The position numbers and the translations under genes were made by a program. From NCBI GenBank assembly GCA_023135835.1, contig JAGLSI010000003.1, positions 1 through 41,765 on the forward strand: a stretch of DNA of 41,765 nucleotides, in the 5' to 3' direction. Positions within the stretch are counted from its first letter, which is position 1; each line of letters begins with the position of its first letter. The stretch comes from Minisyncoccota bacterium. GTDB taxonomy: Bacteria; Patescibacteriota; Minisyncoccia; Phycocordibacterales; UBA12079. The notes beneath the pieces were generated by a model that did no database searches, was not told the origin of the DNA, and was given only the letters and a program-made list of their open reading frames with translations. Below, in pieces: positions 3-32,637 of this stretch.

Positions 3-3000
3 AACGTCGGGATTGGGACGACTGCCCCTGATGGTAAGTTGGAGGTTTATGGAGCTGGGCAACTTGTTAGTGATTTAACAGATGCAGGAAGTAGAGATAA
101 TATGCTAATGATTAATTCATCAGGAACTTCTGGTGGAAGTGGTGGAGCTTTGGTTTTTGGTAATAGTCAGTCTAAGACAGCAGATAGTCTTGGTTGGGCT
201 GCTATAAAGGCTCATTTAACAAATGGTTCTGGTAATACTGTTGGTAATTTAACATTCTCTACAAGAAACTCCACTTCAGATACAGCATTAACACAAAGAA
301 TGACAATTTTATCTGGGGGTAATATTGGAATTGGTGTATCATCTCCATCTCAACAACTAGAAATAACAGGGGATTTTGAATTACCAAATACGACTCACGC
401 TGATGAATCAGGAATAATTTATAAAGGTACAAGCCCGTTTATTCATAATTTTAATTATGGAGATAATGGATCAGTTACAACTGTTGGTGGAAATACTTTT
501 GTGGGTGTGGATTCTGGTAATTTTACAATGGGATCAACGGCGGTTTCAGCTCTTTCTGCTAGTTATAATACAGGGGTAGGAGAAGATTCTTTAAAGTCTT
601 TAACATTAGGATATGGAAATACAGCGTCGGGTTATAATTCTCTTGCTAGTAATACTACGGGAAGTCTTAACTCTGCATTAGGATATTATGCTCTTTTTGA
701 TAATACTACTGGTAATTATAATACAGGGGTAGGAACTGAGTCTCTTGCTAACAATACTATAGGTGATTCTAATACTGCTATAGGAAATAATTCTCTTTGG
801 AATAATGTTGATGGTTCCAATAACTCTGCTTTAGGTCATAGTGCTCTTGTTGGTAATGAAGATGGTGATCTTAATATTGCCATAGGGTATGATGCAGGTC
901 ATTATTATGGAGATTATGCAATGTCAAATACTTCTGGAAATAAAAATATATATTTAGGAGTTCAGACTAAGTCTGCAGGATATGATAAAGAAAATGAGAT
1001 TGTAATTGGTTATACTGCTGAAGGTATTGGCTCTAATTCTGTCGTTTTGGGAAATGAATCTATTACGACAACAGCTTTGAGAGGTAATGTTGGAATTGGA
1101 ACAACTGATCCAGGGGCGAAAACAGAAATTTATCAAGCAATGTCTGATTATGGTTCTGCATTTACTTCACCCCACTTAAATTTGGGGGCAAGCAATACTG
1201 TAGATAATACTGGTTTTGTTGGAATTACTTATGATACGAGCGCTACTGCTAATTATGGTTGGTCATCTGGGGCTTTGAGGAGTTCAAGTGGGCAAGGAGA
1301 TTTTGTTTGGAAATTCCATAGTGCTAGTGCCGTAGGTAGTGAGTTAATGAGAATAACAAGTACAGGCAACGTCGGGATAGGGACTACTGATCCAGTGTCA
1401 GTGCTTCATATTAAAGATACTACATGGACTAATCTATCTATAGAAGCCACCTCTGATGATCCATCATTGCAATTAACATCAGATGGAAGTGGTACAAGTA
1501 ATGACTGGACAATGCGCATGGATGTGTCAGATTCAGATAAACTTCAATGGCGCTATGATGGTACGAAAAAGCTTACAATAACTAGCCCTGGTCAACTAAT
1601 AATGACAAACGACAACTGGCTTTCAGCTGATAATAATGCCGGAACCGACTATGTAAATATGTTCAAGGTAAATACTAGTGATGAAATAGATGTTGGAGCA
1701 ACCTTAAATGTCGGAGCGATGGAATTCTCTGAAGATAGTGGATTTGTAACTGCCATGGATATGCCAGTTTCATCTACACCAACAGCTGGAGATATAGAAG
1801 CTTATGCCTTTAAGGTTGATGGTGATAATATTTTAACTGTTTATGCTGAAGCTGATGGAGCAGGAGGTATTCAAAATGCAAGAGTTGGAATTGGGGATTC
1901 CTCTCCTTCATACCAATTAGAATTATCAACAGATTCCGCTGCAAAACCAGGAACTAGCTCATGGACAGTTTCCTCTGATGAAAGGCTAAAAGATGTTAAT
2001 GGTGATTTCACTAGAGGATTAGATGCTTTGTCTGGACTTTACCCTTCTTACTTTAATTATAAAACAGACAATGATTTAGGGATTCCTAGTGATAGAGAAT
2101 ATGTTGGATTGATTGCTCAGGATGTTCAGTCTGTGATTCCTGAAGCTGTAAGAGAAGGAAAAGAAGGATTTTTGTCTATTGAATCAGATGCTATTTTCTG
2201 GACAATGTTGAACGCTATTAAAGAAATTGGTTTGAAAGTTGGTTCTGATAACATTACTTATACACGAGATACTCTGCAGGTTTTGAACGGAACAGGAGAA
2301 CCGCAAATGAAATTGGCTTATGATGAGGAAAACTTAGCAGAGTTTAATGTATCGGCTGTAGGTGATTTATCTTTGAGTACAGCTGGAAAAGATATTCGGT
2401 TACCAGATGATAATTTATCGGTTTGTTCGGGAGGAGCTTGTTCTTCAGCAGCTTCTTTGATTGAGGGAACTGGTAATTTGGTTGTAGAAAATGTGGCTTA
2501 TATCGCTGGTTCTCTAGGTGTTGGGACAGCTCAACCTAGCCGAGGGTTAGATGTTTACGAGTCTCAATCAGACCCTCAATTTAGAATTTCTTATGACGAT
2601 GATTTGTATTCTGAATTTAATGTTTCTGCCACTGGAGATTTAATAATTTCTGCTGAAGGAGGAGACATCTCTGTTTTGAATGAGAATTTACGAGTTTGTT
2701 CAGATGAAGGTTGCCCTTCTATCGCAAGTCAAATTAAAGATTCTGGTAATTTAGTAGTAGAAAATTCATTGCTAGCTTTAGGAAATGTTGGAATAGGAGG
2801 AACGATTTCTCCAGATTATACATTAGATGTTCAAGGAACTCTACGAGCCTATGGAATTACTGATGCTTCAGATGCTCGTCTAAAAACCAACATCCAACCA
2901 TTAATTCACTTGGGGGTAGCACCCCCAAGTGAAGGGATTTCTGCTACCTTAGAGAATGTTAAAAAATTACGAGGAGTTACTTTTGAATGGAAGAATGAAG

Positions 3001-3314
3001 ATTTTGGAACAGGAATTCAGATTGGAATGATTGCTCAAGAACTAGAAGAAGTTTACCCAGATTTGGTTTCAACAGATGATAGCGGGTTTAAATCAATTCA
3101 ATATGGTAAATTTACAGCAGTTCTGTTAGAAGCAGTTAAAGATTTAATTAATTTTGGAGAAAAAATTGAATATAGAAGTGCAAGATTAGAAAATAGAACA
3201 GCAGAATTGGAAGAAAAAAATATTGAACTTGAAAAACAGGCAGAAAGTTTAGAGCAGAAAACTCAGACATTAGAAGCTCGGATAGAAGCTCTAGAAAATA
3301 TACTTCGTCAGTAA
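3..3314 (+). CDS. Large fibre/adhesin-like surface protein with YadA/Hep_Hag-like head repeats and two S74 (intramolecular chaperone/endosialidase tail) type domains; 5' end outside window
   Basis: Frame is open upstream of the listed TTG start (NVGIGTTAPDGKLEVY, matching later GNVGIGTTDP repeats). Repeats such as NTASGYNSLASNTTGSLNSALGYYAL. SDERLK...YVGLIAQDVQSVIPEAV and SDARLKTNIQPL...IGMIAQELEEVYPDLV S74-like segments. C-terminal coiled coil. Confidence 0.85.
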   Translation, partial: NVGIGTTAPDGKLEVYGAGQLVSDLTDAGSRDNMLMINSSGTSGGSGGALVFGNSQSKTADSLGWAAIKAHLTNGSGNTVGNLTFSTRNSTSDTALTQRMTILSGGNIGIGVSSPSQQLEITGDFELPNTTHADESGIIYKGTSPFIHNFNYGDNGSVTTVGGNTFVGVDSGNFTMGSTAVSALSASYNTGVGEDSLKSLTLGYGNTASGYNSLASNTTGSLNSALGYYALFDNTTGNYNTGVGTESLANNTIGDSNTAIGNNSLWNNVDGSNNSALGHSALVGNEDGDLNIAIGYDAGHYYGDYAMSNTSGNKNIYLGVQTKSAGYDKENEIVIGYTAEGIGSNSVVLGNESITTTALRGNVGIGTTDPGAKTEIYQAMSDYGSAFTSPHLNLGASNTVDNTGFVGITYDTSATANYGWSSGALRSSSGQGDFVWKFHSASAVGSELMRITSTGNVGIGTTDPVSVLHIKDTTWTNLSIEATSDDPSLQLTSDGSGTSNDWTMRMDVSDSDKLQWRYDGTKKLTITSPGQLIMTNDNWLSADNNAGTDYVNMFKVNTSDEIDVGATLNVGAMEFSEDSGFVTAMDMPVSSTPTAGDIEAYAFKVDGDNILTVYAEADGAGGIQNARVGIGDSSPSYQLELSTDSAAKPGTSSWTVSSDERLKDVNGDFTRGLDALSGLYPSYFNYKTDNDLGIPSDREYVGLIAQDVQSVIPEAVREGKEGFLSIESDAIFWTMLNAIKEIGLKVGSDNITYTRDTLQVLNGTGEPQMKLAYDEENLAEFNVSAVGDLSLSTAGKDIRLPDDNLSVCSGGACSSAASLIEGTGNLVVENVAYIAGSLGVGTAQPSRGLDVYESQSDPQFRISYDDDLYSEFNVSATGDLIISAEGGDISVLNENLRVCSDEGCPSIASQIKDSGNLVVENSLLALGNVGIGGTISPDYTLDVQGTLRAYGITDASDARLKTNIQPLIHLGVAPPSEGISATLENVKKLRGVTFEWKNEDFGTGIQIGMIAQELEEVYPDLVSTDDSGFKSIQYGKFTAVLLEAVKDLINFGEKIEYRSARLENRTAELEEKNIELEKQAESLEQKTQTLEARIEALENILRQ
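2905..2933. repeat. REP-like palindrome copy 1 (core AGC), inside the S74 protein CDS
   Basis: ttcacttgggggt-agc-acccccaagtgaa, 13-bp perfect arms. Confidence 0.9.
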
Positions 3315-3326
3315 TTCTAATAATTA

Positions 3327-3353
3327 CTACTTGGGGGTAGCACCCCCAAGTAG
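3327..3353. repeat. REP-like palindrome copy 2 (core AGC), between S74 protein and RAYT
   Basis: ctacttgggggt-agc-acccccaagtag. Confidence 0.9.
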
Positions 3354-3373
3354 GATCTCTAAGTAATAAAAAA

Positions 3374-4114
3374 ATGAGAAAAACAATAATATACAGAAAA
3401 AACGAATATTATCACATTTATAATCGGGGAGTTGATAAGAGAATTATTTTTACAGATAAATTTGATTTGCAGAGATTTTATCAAAGTATGGAAGAATTTA
3501 ATTCTGTTGAACCAATAGGGAGTATTTTTGAAAATCGTTTTAATTTAAAAAACAGAAAAGAATCGCTTGGGGGTGCTACCCCCAAGTATGGGAAATTGGT
3601 GGAAATTGTGGCTTATTGTTTAAATCCTAATCACTATCATTTAATACTAACTTCTTTAGTTGAAGGTGGAATAAGTGAATATATGAGAAGACTTAATTCT
3701 GGATATACTACTTATTTTAATCAAAGATATAAAAGAACAGGTTCATTATTTGGAGGAACTTTTAAATCTGTTTATATTAATTCAGATTCTTATTTAAGAT
3801 TTTTAAGTGTTTATGTAAATTTAAATTTTGAAGTGCATCAAAAGTTTCAAAATGTTAAAGATAAAAAATTATTTCATAAATCTAGCTGGGACGAATATAT
3901 AAAAGTTAAAATTATAAAAGGAAAAAGAGGTGAAGAGAATCAAGTCATTAATAATAAAAATGATATTTGTGATAAATCAATGATCTCGTCTCATTTTGAT
4001 TCAGTAGATCAGTATAAAAAATTTGCTTTAGAGTCGTTAAAGGACATAAAAGCAAAAAGATATAAAGATAGTGAGGTTATTAAGAAAACTTTTGAAACAA
4101 GTAAAGGGTTTTAA
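3374..4114 (+). CDS. REP-associated tyrosine transposase (RAYT), Y1_Tnp/IS200-like HUH family
   Basis: YHIYNRGVDKRIIF start, HUH-type motif CLNPNHYHLILT, and GYTTYFNQRYKRTGSLFGGTFKSVYI, all typical of Y1_Tnp RAYTs. Associated with palindromes. Confidence 0.9.
   Translation: MRKTIIYRKNEYYHIYNRGVDKRIIFTDKFDLQRFYQSMEEFNSVEPIGSIFENRFNLKNRKESLGGATPKYGKLVEIVAYCLNPNHYHLILTSLVEGGISEYMRRLNSGYTTYFNQRYKRTGSLFGGTFKSVYINSDSYLRFLSVYVNLNFEVHQKFQNVKDKKLFHKSSWDEYIKVKIIKGKRGEENQVINNKNDICDKSMISSHFDSVDQYKKFALESLKDIKAKRYKDSEVIKKTFETSKGF
3566..3586. repeat. REP-like palindrome copy 3 (core GCT), inside the RAYT CDS
   Basis: cttgggggt-gct-acccccaag, read in frame as LGGATPK. Confidence 0.9.
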
Positions 4115-4115
4115 A

Positions 4116-4142
4116 TTACTTGGGGGTGCTACCCCCAAGTAA
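4116..4142. repeat. REP-like palindrome copy 4 (core GCT), immediately 3' of RAYT
   Basis: ttacttgggggt-gct-acccccaagtaa, starts 1 bp after the RAYT stop. Confidence 0.9.
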
Positions 4143-4162
4143 AAAATATTATATAAAAGAAG

Positions 4163-7100
4163 ATGAAAAAAATATTTAAAATAAATACATCAATATCGGT
4201 AATAATTGTAGGAATTTTATTTTTCTCTAGTATTGCTTGGGCGGCTATTTTTTATGGAATAGTAGCTGATTCTAGTGCTAGTTTGGTTGGGCATTGGCCT
4301 TTAGATGAAGGGAGTGAGAAAGGTTTAACAGGATTTTATGATCTTTCTGTAGCTTCTCATGATTCTGTTTTTAGCACAACTAGTCAAGATCAGGAGACTC
4401 ATGGACTTGCTTTTAATACTGATGGAACAAAAATGTTTATTGTGGGTATGACTAATGATAGAGTTTATGAATACCATTTAACCACAGGCTTTGACGTTTC
4501 TTCAGCTTCTTATGATTCGTATTATCAGATTCCTGGTGTATCCTTTCTTGTTAACCCTGTGGGACTTGCTTTTAATACTGATGGAACAAAAATGTTTATT
4601 GTTGATATTTATTATAATAATGTAAGTGAATATCACTTAACCACAGGTTTTGACGTTTCTACAACTTCTTTTGATTCAGATTTTGATGTTTCGGGAGAGG
4701 ATGGAAATCCTACGGGGGTTACGTTTAATATTAATGGAACAAAAATGTTTGTAACTGGCGTTGAGAATGATAATGTTTATGAATATCATTTAACTACTGG
4801 TTTTGATGTTTCTACAGCTTCTCATGATTCAAGTTTTGATATATCAGGGCAGGATGATTATCCTGAGGAACTTGTTTTTAGTGCTGATGGTTTTCAAATG
4901 TTTGTTGTAGGAAGTGGTGACTTTGAGGTTAACGTATATGATTTAGGGGCAGCTTTTGATGTTTCTTCTGCTTCGTATAGTTCTGTTTTTAGTGTATCTG
5001 GTGAAGACACAGACCCTAGAGGAATTGCTTTTAATTTAGATGGATCAAAGATGCTTCTTGTTGGTGAAACTGATGATGATGTTAATGAATATCATTTTAC
5101 TTTATCTATGGTTGTGGCTGACAAAACCGCCAACGAAAACCACGGTGAAATTTACGAAACCGCCTACACTACCGACCACATGGGACAGGCTAATAAAGCG
5201 ATGATTTTTGATGGGGTGGATGATAATATTATAATTAGCGATATTGATTTTTCTGATGAGATGACTGGGTCAGTGTGGGTAAAATTTGATGAAGTGTCTA
5301 GTCAGCAGATGGTAGTTTCACAATCTACTGTTTTGGAATATCAATTACAAATGAGAGGTAGTGCTGGGAGTGAATATTTTAGAATTAGGGTGGATACTAA
5401 TGGCGGGAATGGAATTGCAGATTCAACAACACGGGCTATTGCAGATCAATGGTATAATATTACTTGGACCTATGATGGTTCTGATTTGAAAATATATGTT
5501 GACGGAGTATTGGAAAGTACTAATAGTGATGCCTCGGGGAACATAGATGATATTAATGAGAACGTGGGGATCGGCGCTAGAAGTAATGGAGATTATCCAA
5601 CGGACGGTTCCATTTCCGATGTCCGTATCTACGATAAAGCTCTTAGTGCTAAAGAAGTGACAAGTATCTACGAACAATATCGTCCAAAAACACAATTTAG
5701 CACTCGGCAAAAAGGTTTGGTAGGACATTGGATGTTGGATTCAGAGAGTGAAAAAGTGGGAGATAATATTAATGATAATGGTGATTTTGAAACTGGTGAT
5801 TTAACTGGATGGTCGTATTGGTTTAATTCTGCTAATGGTGCCGCGGGGAGTGGGTCAATTGATTCTTCTGAATATTTTGGTGGGTCGTATAGTGGAAAAA
5901 TAAATATTACTAATGGTGGTGGTGCTATTGGTGATATTAATTTTTCTAATAAATATTTTACAACAGCAACGAGCACTGTATATCGCTTGTCTTTTGCAGT
6001 TAAGGCTGATTTTACTCCAACAGCTCCTTTTTCGGCGCGTATTATAAAAAATACTGGCCCATACACAAATTGTGGTTTAATAGAAGATATTACTCCAACT
6101 TCAGAATGGCAGACTTATGATTATACTTTTGATGCAACTTACGGTTTTACAGATGATGTTAGAGTTATTTTTTATTTAGGAAATATTGGTATAGGTAATA
6201 TTTATTTTGATAATGTTTCGTTTAAAGAAGTGAGCATTGCCGACAAAACCCCAAATGAAAATCATGGTGATGTTTATGGTGCTGTTTCTACCACCGACCA
6301 AATGGGGCAAGCTGACCGAGCGATGGTTTTTGATGGAACAAATGATTATGTAGAAATTACCGATTCAACAGATTTTGATATTGATAGTAATGGTTTTACA
6401 TATACGGCTTGGATAAATGGGACTGATTTTACTCCAGCTTATAATATGTTTATGGGGCATTATCTTCCTTATTTTAATGTTAGGAGTACTGGAAAATTAC
6501 ATCTTAGTGTTCATGACGGAACTCAAAGGTCTTGTTATGGCAACACTGTTTTAGATACGGATACTTGGTATTTTGTTTCAGCTACTTATGATAGTGATGG
6601 ATATATGAGAGTCTTCGTAAATGGAGAACAAGATGGAATAGCTGGTCCTTATTCTGATTTAGTTAATTCTTCTTCTCATCAGTATATTGGACAATGGTAT
6701 AATACTGGTACTTATAAGTTTACAGGTTCAATTTCTGATGTGCGTGTTTATAATTATGCTTTGGATTCAAGTGAGCTTGAAACCCTTTATCATTCTTATC
6801 GTCCAAAAATATCTTCTGGGTCTTTGCAAAAAGGTTTGGTTGGACATTGGCCTTTAGATGGGGAGAGTGAAAAGGTAGATGATGATTTGCTTGCTAATGG
6901 AGATTGTGAGATAGCTAAACCAACTTTAAATAGTGCTAGTTCAGGGGCTAGAGCTACGACAGCTCTTTCAAGTACAGAAGCTTTTTCTGGAGTTTCTTCA
7001 ACAAAACTAACTTTAACAGAAGATACTACAGCAGGATTTTATAATATAGGTGCTTATAATTTAAATAACCTAACCCCCGGAAAAACATATAGATATTCAG

Positions 7101-7921
7101 GGTATGTTTATATTCCTTCTAGTGGAGGTGTTTCTACATCGGCTTTTTTACAGTTTTACGATTATAATGGAGCTTATTCTGCTCAAACTCAGACTATAAC
7201 AACAGAAGATGAATGGGTACCCTTTTCTATAACAAGAACAATAAGAAGTGATGCAACTATGGCTTTTGTTAGAGTTAGTGGGAGTGGTCTTAATACTGAA
7301 TATTTATATTTTGATAATTTATCTTTGCGAGAAGTTGAGACTAGTGATAAAGGAGCTTACTCAAATCATGGTGAGGTTTATGGACCAACTTCAACAACAG
7401 GAATAAATGGAGAAACTGATGGAGCGATGAGTTTTGATGGGACTGATGATTATATTAATATGGGGAACGAGGCAAGTTTTCAGGTAACAGGAAGCCAGAC
7501 TATAAGTATGTGGCTTTATCCAGATAACTTTTCTGCAAGAAGGAACCCTCTTGCCAAGGCCTATGGGGGAGAAGGAACGATTACACAAGAAACAGACGGA
7601 GATTTAAGTTATTATTATGGAACAGCTGGTAGTAATACGACCCCTTATCAAGGATTTAGAACTACTTCACCCTTAACTTTAAATAACTGGAATCATATTG
7701 TTCTAACTAGAGATTTAGACAATATGGTTTTGAAATGGTATTTAAATGGTGCAGAAATTACTTCAACCACAGCTCTTTATTCTTATGCCACAGCGTCATC
7801 CCTTGATTTAAAAATTGGTGATGGATATACATCTAATTATGCTGGAAAAATTGCCAATGTTCGTATTTATAATCGAGCTTTAAGTGATGAAGAAATCGCA
7901 TTACTTTATTCTAGAAAATAG
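4163..7921 (+). CDS. Secreted multi-domain protein: N-terminal beta-propeller-like repeats plus three LamG/concanavalin-like domains
   Basis: N-terminal signal/TM. Repeats FNTDGTKMFIVG...YEYHLTTGFDVS. Three LVGHWPLD...AMIFDG...ISDVRIYDKAL LamG signatures. Confidence 0.85.
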   Translation: MKKIFKINTSISVIIVGILFFSSIAWAAIFYGIVADSSASLVGHWPLDEGSEKGLTGFYDLSVASHDSVFSTTSQDQETHGLAFNTDGTKMFIVGMTNDRVYEYHLTTGFDVSSASYDSYYQIPGVSFLVNPVGLAFNTDGTKMFIVDIYYNNVSEYHLTTGFDVSTTSFDSDFDVSGEDGNPTGVTFNINGTKMFVTGVENDNVYEYHLTTGFDVSTASHDSSFDISGQDDYPEELVFSADGFQMFVVGSGDFEVNVYDLGAAFDVSSASYSSVFSVSGEDTDPRGIAFNLDGSKMLLVGETDDDVNEYHFTLSMVVADKTANENHGEIYETAYTTDHMGQANKAMIFDGVDDNIIISDIDFSDEMTGSVWVKFDEVSSQQMVVSQSTVLEYQLQMRGSAGSEYFRIRVDTNGGNGIADSTTRAIADQWYNITWTYDGSDLKIYVDGVLESTNSDASGNIDDINENVGIGARSNGDYPTDGSISDVRIYDKALSAKEVTSIYEQYRPKTQFSTRQKGLVGHWMLDSESEKVGDNINDNGDFETGDLTGWSYWFNSANGAAGSGSIDSSEYFGGSYSGKINITNGGGAIGDINFSNKYFTTATSTVYRLSFAVKADFTPTAPFSARIIKNTGPYTNCGLIEDITPTSEWQTYDYTFDATYGFTDDVRVIFYLGNIGIGNIYFDNVSFKEVSIADKTPNENHGDVYGAVSTTDQMGQADRAMVFDGTNDYVEITDSTDFDIDSNGFTYTAWINGTDFTPAYNMFMGHYLPYFNVRSTGKLHLSVHDGTQRSCYGNTVLDTDTWYFVSATYDSDGYMRVFVNGEQDGIAGPYSDLVNSSSHQYIGQWYNTGTYKFTGSISDVRVYNYALDSSELETLYHSYRPKISSGSLQKGLVGHWPLDGESEKVDDDLLANGDCEIAKPTLNSASSGARATTALSSTEAFSGVSSTKLTLTEDTTAGFYNIGAYNLNNLTPGKTYRYSGYVYIPSSGGVSTSAFLQFYDYNGAYSAQTQTITTEDEWVPFSITRTIRSDATMAFVRVSGSGLNTEYLYFDNLSLREVETSDKGAYSNHGEVYGPTSTTGINGETDGAMSFDGTDDYINMGNEASFQVTGSQTISMWLYPDNFSARRNPLAKAYGGEGTITQETDGDLSYYYGTAGSNTTPYQGFRTTSPLTLNNWNHIVLTRDLDNMVLKWYLNGAEITSTTALYSYATASSLDLKIGDGYTSNYAGKIANVRIYNRALSDEEIALLYSRK

Positions 7922-7984
7922 AAATTAATTTAGTAATTATAAGGATTTGTTATCCACTTAGAAAATTTATTTATACAAGTATTT

Positions 7985-12140: not shown

Positions 12141-12160
12141 TACTCCAGTTAACTGGAGTA
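12141..12160. promoter_or_regulatory. 20-bp perfect palindrome TACTCCAGTTAACTGGAGTA, copy 1; candidate operator upstream of the TrpR-like gene
   Basis: Perfect dyad, 45 bp upstream of the ATG at 12206. Confidence 0.55.
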
Positions 12161-12676: not shown

Positions 12677-12704
12677 TAATTACTCCAGTTAACTGGAGTA
12701 ATTA
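12677..12704. repeat. 28-bp perfect palindrome TAATTACTCCAGTTAACTGGAGTAATTA, copy 2
   Basis: Same core as 12141-12160. Confidence 0.85.
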
Positions 12705-12872: not shown

Positions 12873-12896
12873 ATTACTCCAGTTAACTGGAGTAAT
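12873..12896. repeat. 24-bp perfect palindrome ATTACTCCAGTTAACTGGAGTAAT, copy 3
   Basis: Same core as the copies at 12141 and 12677. Confidence 0.85.
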
Positions 12897-32614: not shown

Positions 32615-32637
32615 AAGTAGCGCTCCGAGCGCTACTT
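32615..32637. terminator. Hairpin after dnaJ
   Basis: aagtagcgct-ccg-agcgctactt. Confidence 0.55.

Follow-up and report, generated by a model that had tools for sequence, protein, structure and literature searches.

The window analysed here, a stretch of 41,765 nucleotides from a Minisyncoccota bacterium, carries near its start four near-identical palindromes that bracket, and lie within, a gene for a RAYT-like transposase. This raised the question of whether the palindromes are the DNA hairpins on which this enzyme acts. The features concerned are as follows.

39..3314, plus strand: large protein with a C-terminal S74 (endosialidase chaperone) domain (Peptidase_S74, 101.6 bits); host gene of palindrome copy 1
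2905..2933, plus strand: palindrome copy 1, core AGC, in frame in the S74-domain gene, peptide HLGVAPPS
3327..3353, plus strand: palindrome copy 2, core AGC, 20 bp 5' of the RAYT start codon
3374..4114, plus strand: RAYT-like HUH/Y1 transposase, 246 amino acids (Pfam PF01797, Y1_Tnp, 31 bits, cut-off 23)
3566..3586, plus strand: palindrome copy 3, core GCT, in frame within the RAYT as residues 65-71 (LGGATPK), in a loop before the HUH motif
4116..4142, plus strand: palindrome copy 4, core GCT, immediately 3' of the RAYT stop codon
4163..7921, plus strand: laminin-G/CBM repeat surface protein, just 3' of the RAYT and forming a block with it

Palindromes and transposase of the window

The palindrome, termed family A, reads CTTGGGGGT-(AGC/GCT)-ACCCCCAAG. 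A search allowing up to three mismatches returned exactly four matches in the window, all of them perfect, while none occurred in 100 dinucleotide shuffles and the chance expectation was 0. The preliminary description had placed copies at 2905, 3327, 3566 and 4116, had seen none elsewhere in the window and had noted the opposite core orientation of copies 2 and 4 on either side of the transposase (AGC and GCT). All of this was borne out; its positions are the starts of slightly longer palindromes, and the 21-nt cores lie at 2909-2929, 3330-3350, 3566-3586 and 4119-4139. The family A hairpin is predicted to be stable as single-stranded DNA. At the site of copy 1, about 30 nt are missing in a relative of the same genus (G003), with the frame kept. 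The loop of copy 3 falls in a residue block (61-70) modelled with low confidence (mean pLDDT 58, compared with 88 for the whole protein), and this site is filled in most related RAYTs too.

When the outward flanks of the palindromes were aligned, no conserved tetranucleotide corresponding to a GTAG (or GT[AG]G) foot was found, family A having T, G, A and T at 88, 50, 58 and 58%. The outward reading CTAC...GTAG at copy 2 was attributed to chance. Pairing of the outer arms beyond the core was not significant in family A alone (p=0.12) and was far above chance in families B, a7, q and JAHFMQ. We also considered a longer element extending through GGGAAATTGGTGGAAATT, which follows both the TGT-gene palindrome and RAYT copy 3 on the 3' side. 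It was rejected because GGGAAATTGGTGGAAATT is mostly TGT's own sequence, and the TGT gene of G003 has it beside a different palindrome.

The HUH motif of the window RAYT is H87-Y88-H89. Residues H87, H89 and Y147 were invariant in 41 relatives, Y147 being the probable catalytic tyrosine, and the invariant catalytic residues suggest that these RAYTs have retained nuclease activity. A fold search gave 4er8, TnpAREP in complex with a REP hairpin, as the best match, and a sequence search against solved structures gave no match. The NCBIfam model REP_Tyr_transpos (NF047646) scored the window RAYT at 19 bits, under its curated cut-off of 80, and matched 35 of the 41 relatives at E <= 0.001.

Pairing of transposases with palindrome families

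The genome of the window (G000; 572,592 bases) was found to contain 13 exact copies of family A on 10 contigs, nine of the copies outside the window, and no copy of the reversed pattern. The dispersal that the preliminary description had named as support is thus genome-wide and not a local duplication. Nine of the 13 copies are in frame in long ORFs (one of these possibly 5' of the true start), one is in a 125-amino-acid ORF and three are intergenic. A second RAYT gene of this genome, C15, has the same layout with family B, CAGCGCT-NNN-AGCGCTG, whose 19 copies are mostly intergenic and include seven at the C15 gene. The relative G007, a single complete contig, has three RAYTs and three palindrome families, each found at its gene and dispersed, and G003 has two RAYTs and two families. 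Every RAYT has a different stem; the G5/C5 sequence, earlier taken as a special feature, is therefore not one. Two RAYTs, L100 and G7a, have REPIN-like inverted doublets. A BIME/REPtron arrangement had also been suggested: the REPtron-like part, a RAYT with its own palindrome, stood, and family A forms no BIMEs.

At 51 of 64 RAYT loci, the gene together with 120 bp on either side contained at least two palindromes of the same stem. By the same criterion 8 of 528 control ORFs scored, namely five RAYTs, two RAYT neighbours and one other, so that among controls neither RAYT nor RAYT-adjoining 1 of 521 was positive. A cognate palindrome was absent at 13 of the 64 loci, including C30 (L099), the most classical RAYT of G000. 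RAYTs carry the palindrome directly upstream and downstream, usually with one or two fixed in-frame internal sites, site 1 before the HUH motif (about +150-220 nt) and site 2 after Y147 (about +445-490 nt). Furthermore, RAYT similarity tracked palindrome similarity (Mantel r=0.30; 0/2000 permutations). When 50 relatives were searched for both, such a RAYT was present in 10/10 palindrome-positive genomes and the palindrome in 0/18 RAYT-less ones (one-sided Fisher p about 0.006); abundance of the palindrome in RAYT-less genomes, named beforehand as counter-evidence, was not seen. The core of the dispersed copies also equalled that in the same genome's RAYT, GAA in 15/15 copies of JAHFMQ and CCG in 12/12 of JANLHF, the two genomes on which this argument rests. 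Three others were left out: the family-A copy inside RAYT L069 of JAHIYV was rejected as cognate, L069 having its own stem, CAGGGGT, and the family-A RAYT of JAUSGQ and MFMU lies outside the set of loci compared.

RAYT units were present or absent at orthologous places between congeners. The block of the RAYT and the laminin-G/CBM gene, at about 3315-7948, is absent at the same place in G003, and a G003 RAYT unit is flanked by a 15-bp direct repeat; IS200/IS605 elements move as a unit, with subterminal hairpins and guide sequences and no duplication of the target, and guide sequences were not found here. No insertion separating near-identical strains, which would mark recent movement, was observed, and divergence between G007 and G000 was too high for clean empty sites. 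Collectively, the palindromes at those 51 loci, the one-to-one pairing and the correlated similarity of RAYT and palindrome indicate that this is, as judged from sequence, a REPtron-like system in CPR (Patescibacteria), made up of a RAYT plus its cognate hairpins. We consider it likely that the palindromes around each RAYT serve as its cognate hairpins, the two forming a putative mobilisation system.

Slots in genes, proposed mechanism and alternatives

As an HUH/Y1 single-strand nuclease-transposase, the RAYT would most likely take as substrate the folded hairpin where it is exposed single-stranded, the lagging-strand template being one example, and would cut at the hairpin foot and spread copies. 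In-gene copies may persist because the loops they fall in are flexible and the reading frame stays intact. In-frame palindromes were found in TruB, MiaA, TGT, Fmt, KsgA and the S74 gene, and the same loops of TruB and MiaA hold different palindromes across genomes. At the TruB slot, the palindromes of G000 and G003 are of equal length and have common outer arms, CACTTGG/CCAAGTG, with different inner stems. The orthologous RAYTs C15 of G000 and C3 of G003, 73% identical, carry different palindromes at matching upstream, internal and downstream sites, and all four sites have changed together. More same-site pairs between the two genomes were found in a glycosyltransferase gene, the C31/C10 gene and one intergenic spacer. 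Decayed palindromes proposed at Fmt and an M23 peptidase of G003 were rejected, being no more palindromic than random DNA.

These observations may reflect hairpin exchange, a reading we offer tentatively, as less probable than not. A RAYT would home to palindromes that the genome already has and put its own in their place. Each change of RAYT specificity would then rewrite, genome-wide, the fixed slots of the RAYT gene and of housekeeping genes, a concerted evolution by single-strand hairpin swapping. Less certainly than the cutting step, new copies might land preferentially on existing palindromes or hairpins, and the slots might persist while the occupant is replaced by the palindrome of the currently active RAYT. 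Alternatively, in TruB, MiaA and the RAYTs the same loops, tolerant and prone to hairpins, could have been struck independently in different lineages by different palindromes without being rewritten, which competes with exchange only and not with the pairing. This alternative, to which we give somewhat less than an even chance, is consistent with the tolerance of these loops for insertions, with same-loop palindromes in quite distant genomes and with REPs or RPEs in truB of other bacteria, as passages of PMC3733652 describe. The equal length and common arms of the TruB pair, the joint change at the four C15/C3 sites and the further same-site pairs argue against it.

A domesticated regulator would move nothing and would bind the palindrome as an operator or mRNA hairpin controlling itself and the copy-carrying genes, the copies being kept for regulation. 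The recurrence of copies at fixed sites in and around the RAYT gene fits this, as does an extended -10 element that many relatives have right beside the upstream copy. At least five of six TATAAT matches were found 5' of the RAYTs at 36/46 loci, with TG at the extended position in 25, and the -10 was mostly 6-7 nt ahead of the ATG, a spacing suggesting leaderless transcripts. However, these matches were individually weak compared with shuffles (mean p 0.32), the dispersed copies vary among relatives and occupy downstream spacers and the middle of unrelated genes, and the invariant catalytic residues point to a nuclease that is still active. The element was not evident 5' of the window's own RAYT. 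We regard pure regulation as unlikely; a mobilising RAYT could still hold down its own expression through the upstream copy. We infer mobilisation, slot exchange and self-regulation alike.

Less likely again is a third-party mover, such as another IS200/IS605 enzyme, recombination or template switching in replication, with palindromes gathering around the RAYT only through its position in permissive DNA. A further palindrome family, CCTGCCTGCCGGCAGGCAGG, with 13 copies in G000 and 13 in G007, is a clean 20 bp insertion and sits at no RAYT among those examined, as such a mover would allow; that several RAYTs and several families pair strictly within one genome, and that they diverge in step, would not be expected from it. 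Chance, local duplication or assembly artefact, suggested by incomplete, probably metagenome-derived assemblies with several contigs ending in or near repeats, has a negligible probability given the expectation of 0 matches, the copies on 10 contigs of one genome and the same pattern in single-contig G007 and many independent genomes.

Relation to known systems

REPtrons are REP-RAYT systems of TnpAREP groups 2 and 3 in gammaproteobacteria (PMC8266576, PMC2817692). Like them, the present system has an HUH/Y1 enzyme, and each enzyme has a single cognate hairpin family, found on both sides of the gene and elsewhere in the genome. Enzyme and hairpin co-evolve, a genome has several such pairs, and inverted doublets occur in some cases. 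Unlike REPtrons, it has perfect palindromes with no GTAG foot, in tens and not hundreds of copies, often in housekeeping genes and inside the RAYT gene; units are present or absent between congeners, most family A copies are intragenic whereas REPtron copies are mostly extragenic, and the window RAYT is far below the NCBI REP-RAYT model cut-off (19 versus 80 bits).

The sections of PMC6006769 on TnpAY1 subclass 2.4 likewise describe REP copies in frame inside tnpA, between HUH and Y, with one REP type bearing complementary feet ('double foot'). Here the internal copies lie before HUH and after Y147, not between, and the signature is NHYH/FQ/YVNLN without GT[AG]G, in contrast to NH[IFV]H/WQ/YIxNNP. 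Subclass 2.6 and class 3 (PMC6006769) and TIRtrons/TIRYTs (PMC3733652) resemble our system, in the passages that treat them, in that non-GTAG hairpins or inverted repeats flank RAYT-like genes and have copies elsewhere; those are mostly from Bacteroidetes, Planctomycetes and Acidobacteria, and the same passages describe no internal copies. By published signature alone, subclass 2.1 (NH[YF]H, FQ, Y[IV]HLNP, about 238 amino acids) looks nearest to the window RAYT; the portion of PMC6006769 on it reports that no REP-like sequences were found. Palindromes also lie in frame in housekeeping genes, truB included, among the Rickettsia palindromic elements (RPE) and intragenic REPs. These are described without a dedicated transposase in the relevant part of PMC3733652, whereas each family here is paired with a RAYT; we read the resemblance as likeness in behaviour.

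In-gene REPs and GTAG-less repeats are thus already known elsewhere. What is distinct from described REPtrons is the perfect GTAG-less palindromes, the fixed in-gene copies before HUH and after Y, and the gene slots in TruB and MiaA. The preliminary description had proposed that a REP-RAYT pair with this G5/C5 sequence in a CPR genome may be undescribed: the pair is present, the sequence is not distinctive, and no report was found in literature on CPR RAYTs and intragenic palindromes, which is weak evidence of novelty in a search whose coverage took in few subscription papers. These findings extend REP-RAYT biology to tiny uncultured CPR bacteria, which offer a natural panel for the study of hairpin recognition, with dozens of independent pairs of enzyme and hairpin and several of them in each genome. 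In-frame palindromes in housekeeping genes, as in the Rickettsia RPEs, had no known mover, and here a candidate adjoins them. Finally, the TruB and MiaA slots with genome-specific palindromes suggest exchange rather than addition only, which is directly testable.

Palindromes at the RAYT gene

A preliminary description had placed four near-identical palindromes at a Y1 transposase (RAYT) gene. We found that the window does hold four perfect CTTGGGGGT-(AGC/GCT)-ACCCCCAAG palindromes (family A), a pattern with zero matches in each of 100 dinucleotide shuffles, and that copies 2 and 4 flank the Y1 gene as described, which matches PF01797 at 31 bits.

Family A palindromes and the RAYT gene in the window
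Copy 1, 2905-2933 including outer pairing bases: lies inside the upstream S74-domain gene, in frame
Copy 2, 3327-3353 including outer pairing bases: ends 20 bp 5' of the RAYT ATG
RAYT gene, 3374-4114, forward strand
Copy 3, 3566-3586: in frame in the RAYT, residues 65-71
Copy 4, 4116-4142 including outer pairing bases: starts right behind the RAYT stop codon

As single-stranded DNA, the family A 23-mer was predicted to form a hairpin that has a 10-bp stem and a loop of 3 nt (-10.4 kcal/mol). The predicted RAYT structure (pLDDT 88, pTM 0.84), least certain at residues 61-70, the block into which the palindrome is translated, best matched a complex of E. coli TnpAREP with a REP hairpin (4er8), followed by the IS608 and ISDra2 transposases. 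Residues H14, N86, H87, H89, G123 and Y147 were invariant in 41 aligned relatives; the NCBI REP-RAYT model matched 35 of 41 members and gave the window protein 19 bits, below its cut-off of 80.

RAYTs and palindromes are paired and co-diverge

Family A is not a local duplication: the source genome (G000; 572,592 bases in 35 contigs, 90% complete) contained 13 exact copies, with 0 for the reversed control pattern. Nine of the 13 were in frame in long ORFs, whose names we read from their sequences: queuine tRNA-ribosyltransferase (TGT), Met-tRNA formyltransferase (Fmt), MiaA, glycosyltransferase, TruB, KsgA, M23 peptidase (near the N terminus, perhaps 5' of the true start), the S74 gene and the RAYT. 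The others lay in a 125-aa ORF (one) or were intergenic (three, two of these bordering the RAYT). Matches to the pattern in public genomes came chiefly from Kaiserbacteria and other Patescibacteria; elsewhere there were isolated single matches. Among the conserved hosts, most encode tRNA- or rRNA-modifying enzymes or proteins otherwise acting on tRNA (TGT, Fmt, MiaA, TruB, KsgA). MnmA is a tRNA-type host too, for other palindrome families; mnmA of G000 (L144:486-991) has three in-frame palindromes of two families. The gene truB is also among the REP/RPE hosts that PMC3733652 mentions in other bacteria.

G000 has four Y1 genes. The RAYT on contig C15 (L100) had another palindrome on both sides and within the gene, CAGCGCT-(TGG/CCA)-AGCGCTG (family B; 19 copies in G000, 7 at this locus), and a third gene, cut by a contig end (L101), contained CTTAGTACCCGAGGTACTAAG. 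The most classical RAYT (C30:21474-22148, equal to L099:1475-2149; YVERNP motif, 68 bits) had no palindrome around or in the gene. The same-family genome G007 (one contig, 752,630 bases) had three RAYTs and three corresponding palindrome families, each upstream, internal and downstream of its own RAYT (one downstream copy being a variant) as well as dispersed, and the same-genus genome G003 had two of each. At least two same-stem palindromes lay within the gene ±120 bp at 51 of 64 RAYT loci, with copies upstream in 46, internal in 42 and downstream in 38. Among 528 control ORFs of 200-500 aa from G007 and G003 only eight scored, comprising five RAYTs, two RAYT neighbours and one unrelated ORF. 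Internal copies fell into three groups, site 1 at about +150-220 nt, site 2 at +445-490 nt and a third towards the 3' end of the gene. The RAYT family was present in 105 of 288 genomes of the phylum, and the layout recurred in 13 of 27 additional loci, many from other classes; most genomes compared were incomplete assemblies. REPIN-like inverted doublets occurred at both ends of two RAYTs (L100:1285-1340 and 2154-2214; G007 344573-344648 and 345375-345451), and one lay away from a RAYT (L102:32-95).

When 50 relatives were searched for both elements, all 10 genomes with a family-A-like palindrome had a RAYT and none of the 18 RAYT-less genomes had the palindrome (one-sided Fisher p about 0.006, calculated by hand), so that abundance without the RAYT, which would have spoken against a REP-RAYT pair, was not seen. 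The 3-nt core of dispersed copies equalled that inside the genome's own RAYT in two public genomes (GAA, 15/15; CCG, 12/12), and stem similarity correlated with RAYT similarity (Mantel r=0.30, 0/2000 permutations). One exception was the C15 RAYT of G000 and the C3 RAYT of G003, which share 73% identity by BLAST (78% in the Mantel-test alignment) and have unrelated palindromes at equal upstream, internal and downstream sites. Collectively, these data show strict pairing of RAYT and palindrome, with dispersal, co-divergence and fixed in-gene sites.

Variable units and shared slots

RAYT units were present or absent at orthologous places. A palindrome-RAYT-palindrome unit on contig C10 of G003 lies between two glycosyltransferase genes that adjoin in G000 without a RAYT, and the stretch of G003 between the S74 gene and the gene after it contains neither the window RAYT nor the laminin-G gene that follows this RAYT. 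Two single-copy sites are empty in G003: that of copy 1, where about 30 nt are missing and the frame is intact, and that of the PyrG insert. The C10 unit (C10:20080-20830) is bordered by a 15-bp direct repeat, GTTTTTAATAAATTA, unexpected under an IS200/IS605-type mechanism.

At several sites a relative had another palindrome whose length was the same or almost the same, demonstrating shared slots. The TruB slot contained AATCACTTGGGGGTAGCACCCCCAAGTGATT in G000, AACCACTTGGAAACCCGGTTTCCAAGTGGTT in G003 and other stems in G006, G007 (the stem of its own RAYT family), G009 and G054; two loops of MiaA contained palindromes that varied from genome to genome, and the same was true of the glycosyltransferase, the C31/C10 gene and an intergenic site. 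At the tested slots of G003, palindromicity was strong for TruB, for the C31/C10 gene and for the intergenic site; TGT and MiaA were moderately palindromic, and Fmt, M23 and KsgA showed no palindromicity. The segment tested for the glycosyltransferase was off-centre, and a separate search found a perfect palindrome there. Flanks paired site-specifically beyond the core in families B, a7 and JAHFMQ (p<0.001) and q (p=0.0008), not significantly in family A (p=0.12) and not at all in the non-RAYT family CCTGCCTG. The palindromes thus tend to be the centre of longer inverted repeats, which is consistent with palindromes entering, or being exchanged with, ones already in place; alternatively, the arms may have lengthened after insertion.

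Other palindromes were also seen. G000 and G007 each have 13 copies of CCTGCCTGCCGGCAGGCAGG, which was at none of the RAYTs examined (copies in G000 include L104:6433, L136:1363, L139:11874 and L152:5416, the last inside another palindrome); its copies are clean 20-bp insertions relative to G003, without outer-arm pairing. Intergenic ACTCCAGTTAACTGGAGT has three closely spaced copies in the window, at 12141-12160, 12677-12704 and 12873-12896, and another at L135:6698. TAGCGCT-NNN-AGCGCTA occurs at window 32615-32637, L125:740, L144:486 and 6015 and L133:15874; mnmA contains one of these copies in frame, and one intergenic site of G000 has TAGTAGTTGGACTACTA in G003.

Known systems and a proposed mechanism

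The nearest systems described in the open-access literature (PMC6006769, PMC3733652 and PMC8266576) are REPtrons, TnpAY1 subclasses 2.4 and 2.6 and class 3, TIRtrons and Rickettsia RPEs. Subclass 2.4 carries REPs in frame within tnpA, between HUH and Y (PMC6006769), whereas the internal palindromes here lie before HUH and after the tyrosine. Non-GTAG hairpins are described for subclass 2.6, class 3 and TIRtrons (PMC6006769, PMC3733652). Unlike usual REPs, the palindromes here lack a GTAG foot, and most family A copies do not lie between genes; with the internal sites outside HUH-Y as well, we regard this as a REPtron-like system that departs from the described ones. Judged by published signatures, the window RAYT would be closest to subclass 2.1, which PMC6006769 reports as lacking REPs.

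The functions we assign to RAYTs and palindromes are inferred throughout. Self-regulation of the RAYT via the upstream palindrome is a tentative idea. Of 46 loci, 36 had a -10-like hexamer (at least 5/6) behind the upstream palindrome, 25 of them with TG in the extended position, and TGnTATAAT came directly after the palindrome and 6-9 nt before the ATG at, for example, L174, L173, L178 and G3b; individual matches were weak relative to shuffles, and the window RAYT had no clear -10 element behind its upstream palindrome. The hexamer lay mostly 6-7 nt 5' of the ATG, and these spacings suggest that RAYT transcripts may be leaderless. TnpAREP cuts and rejoins its own single-stranded REP (PMC8266576); by analogy, each RAYT would process its cognate hairpin and spread copies of it, and, with less confidence, palindromes may be replaced at existing slots.
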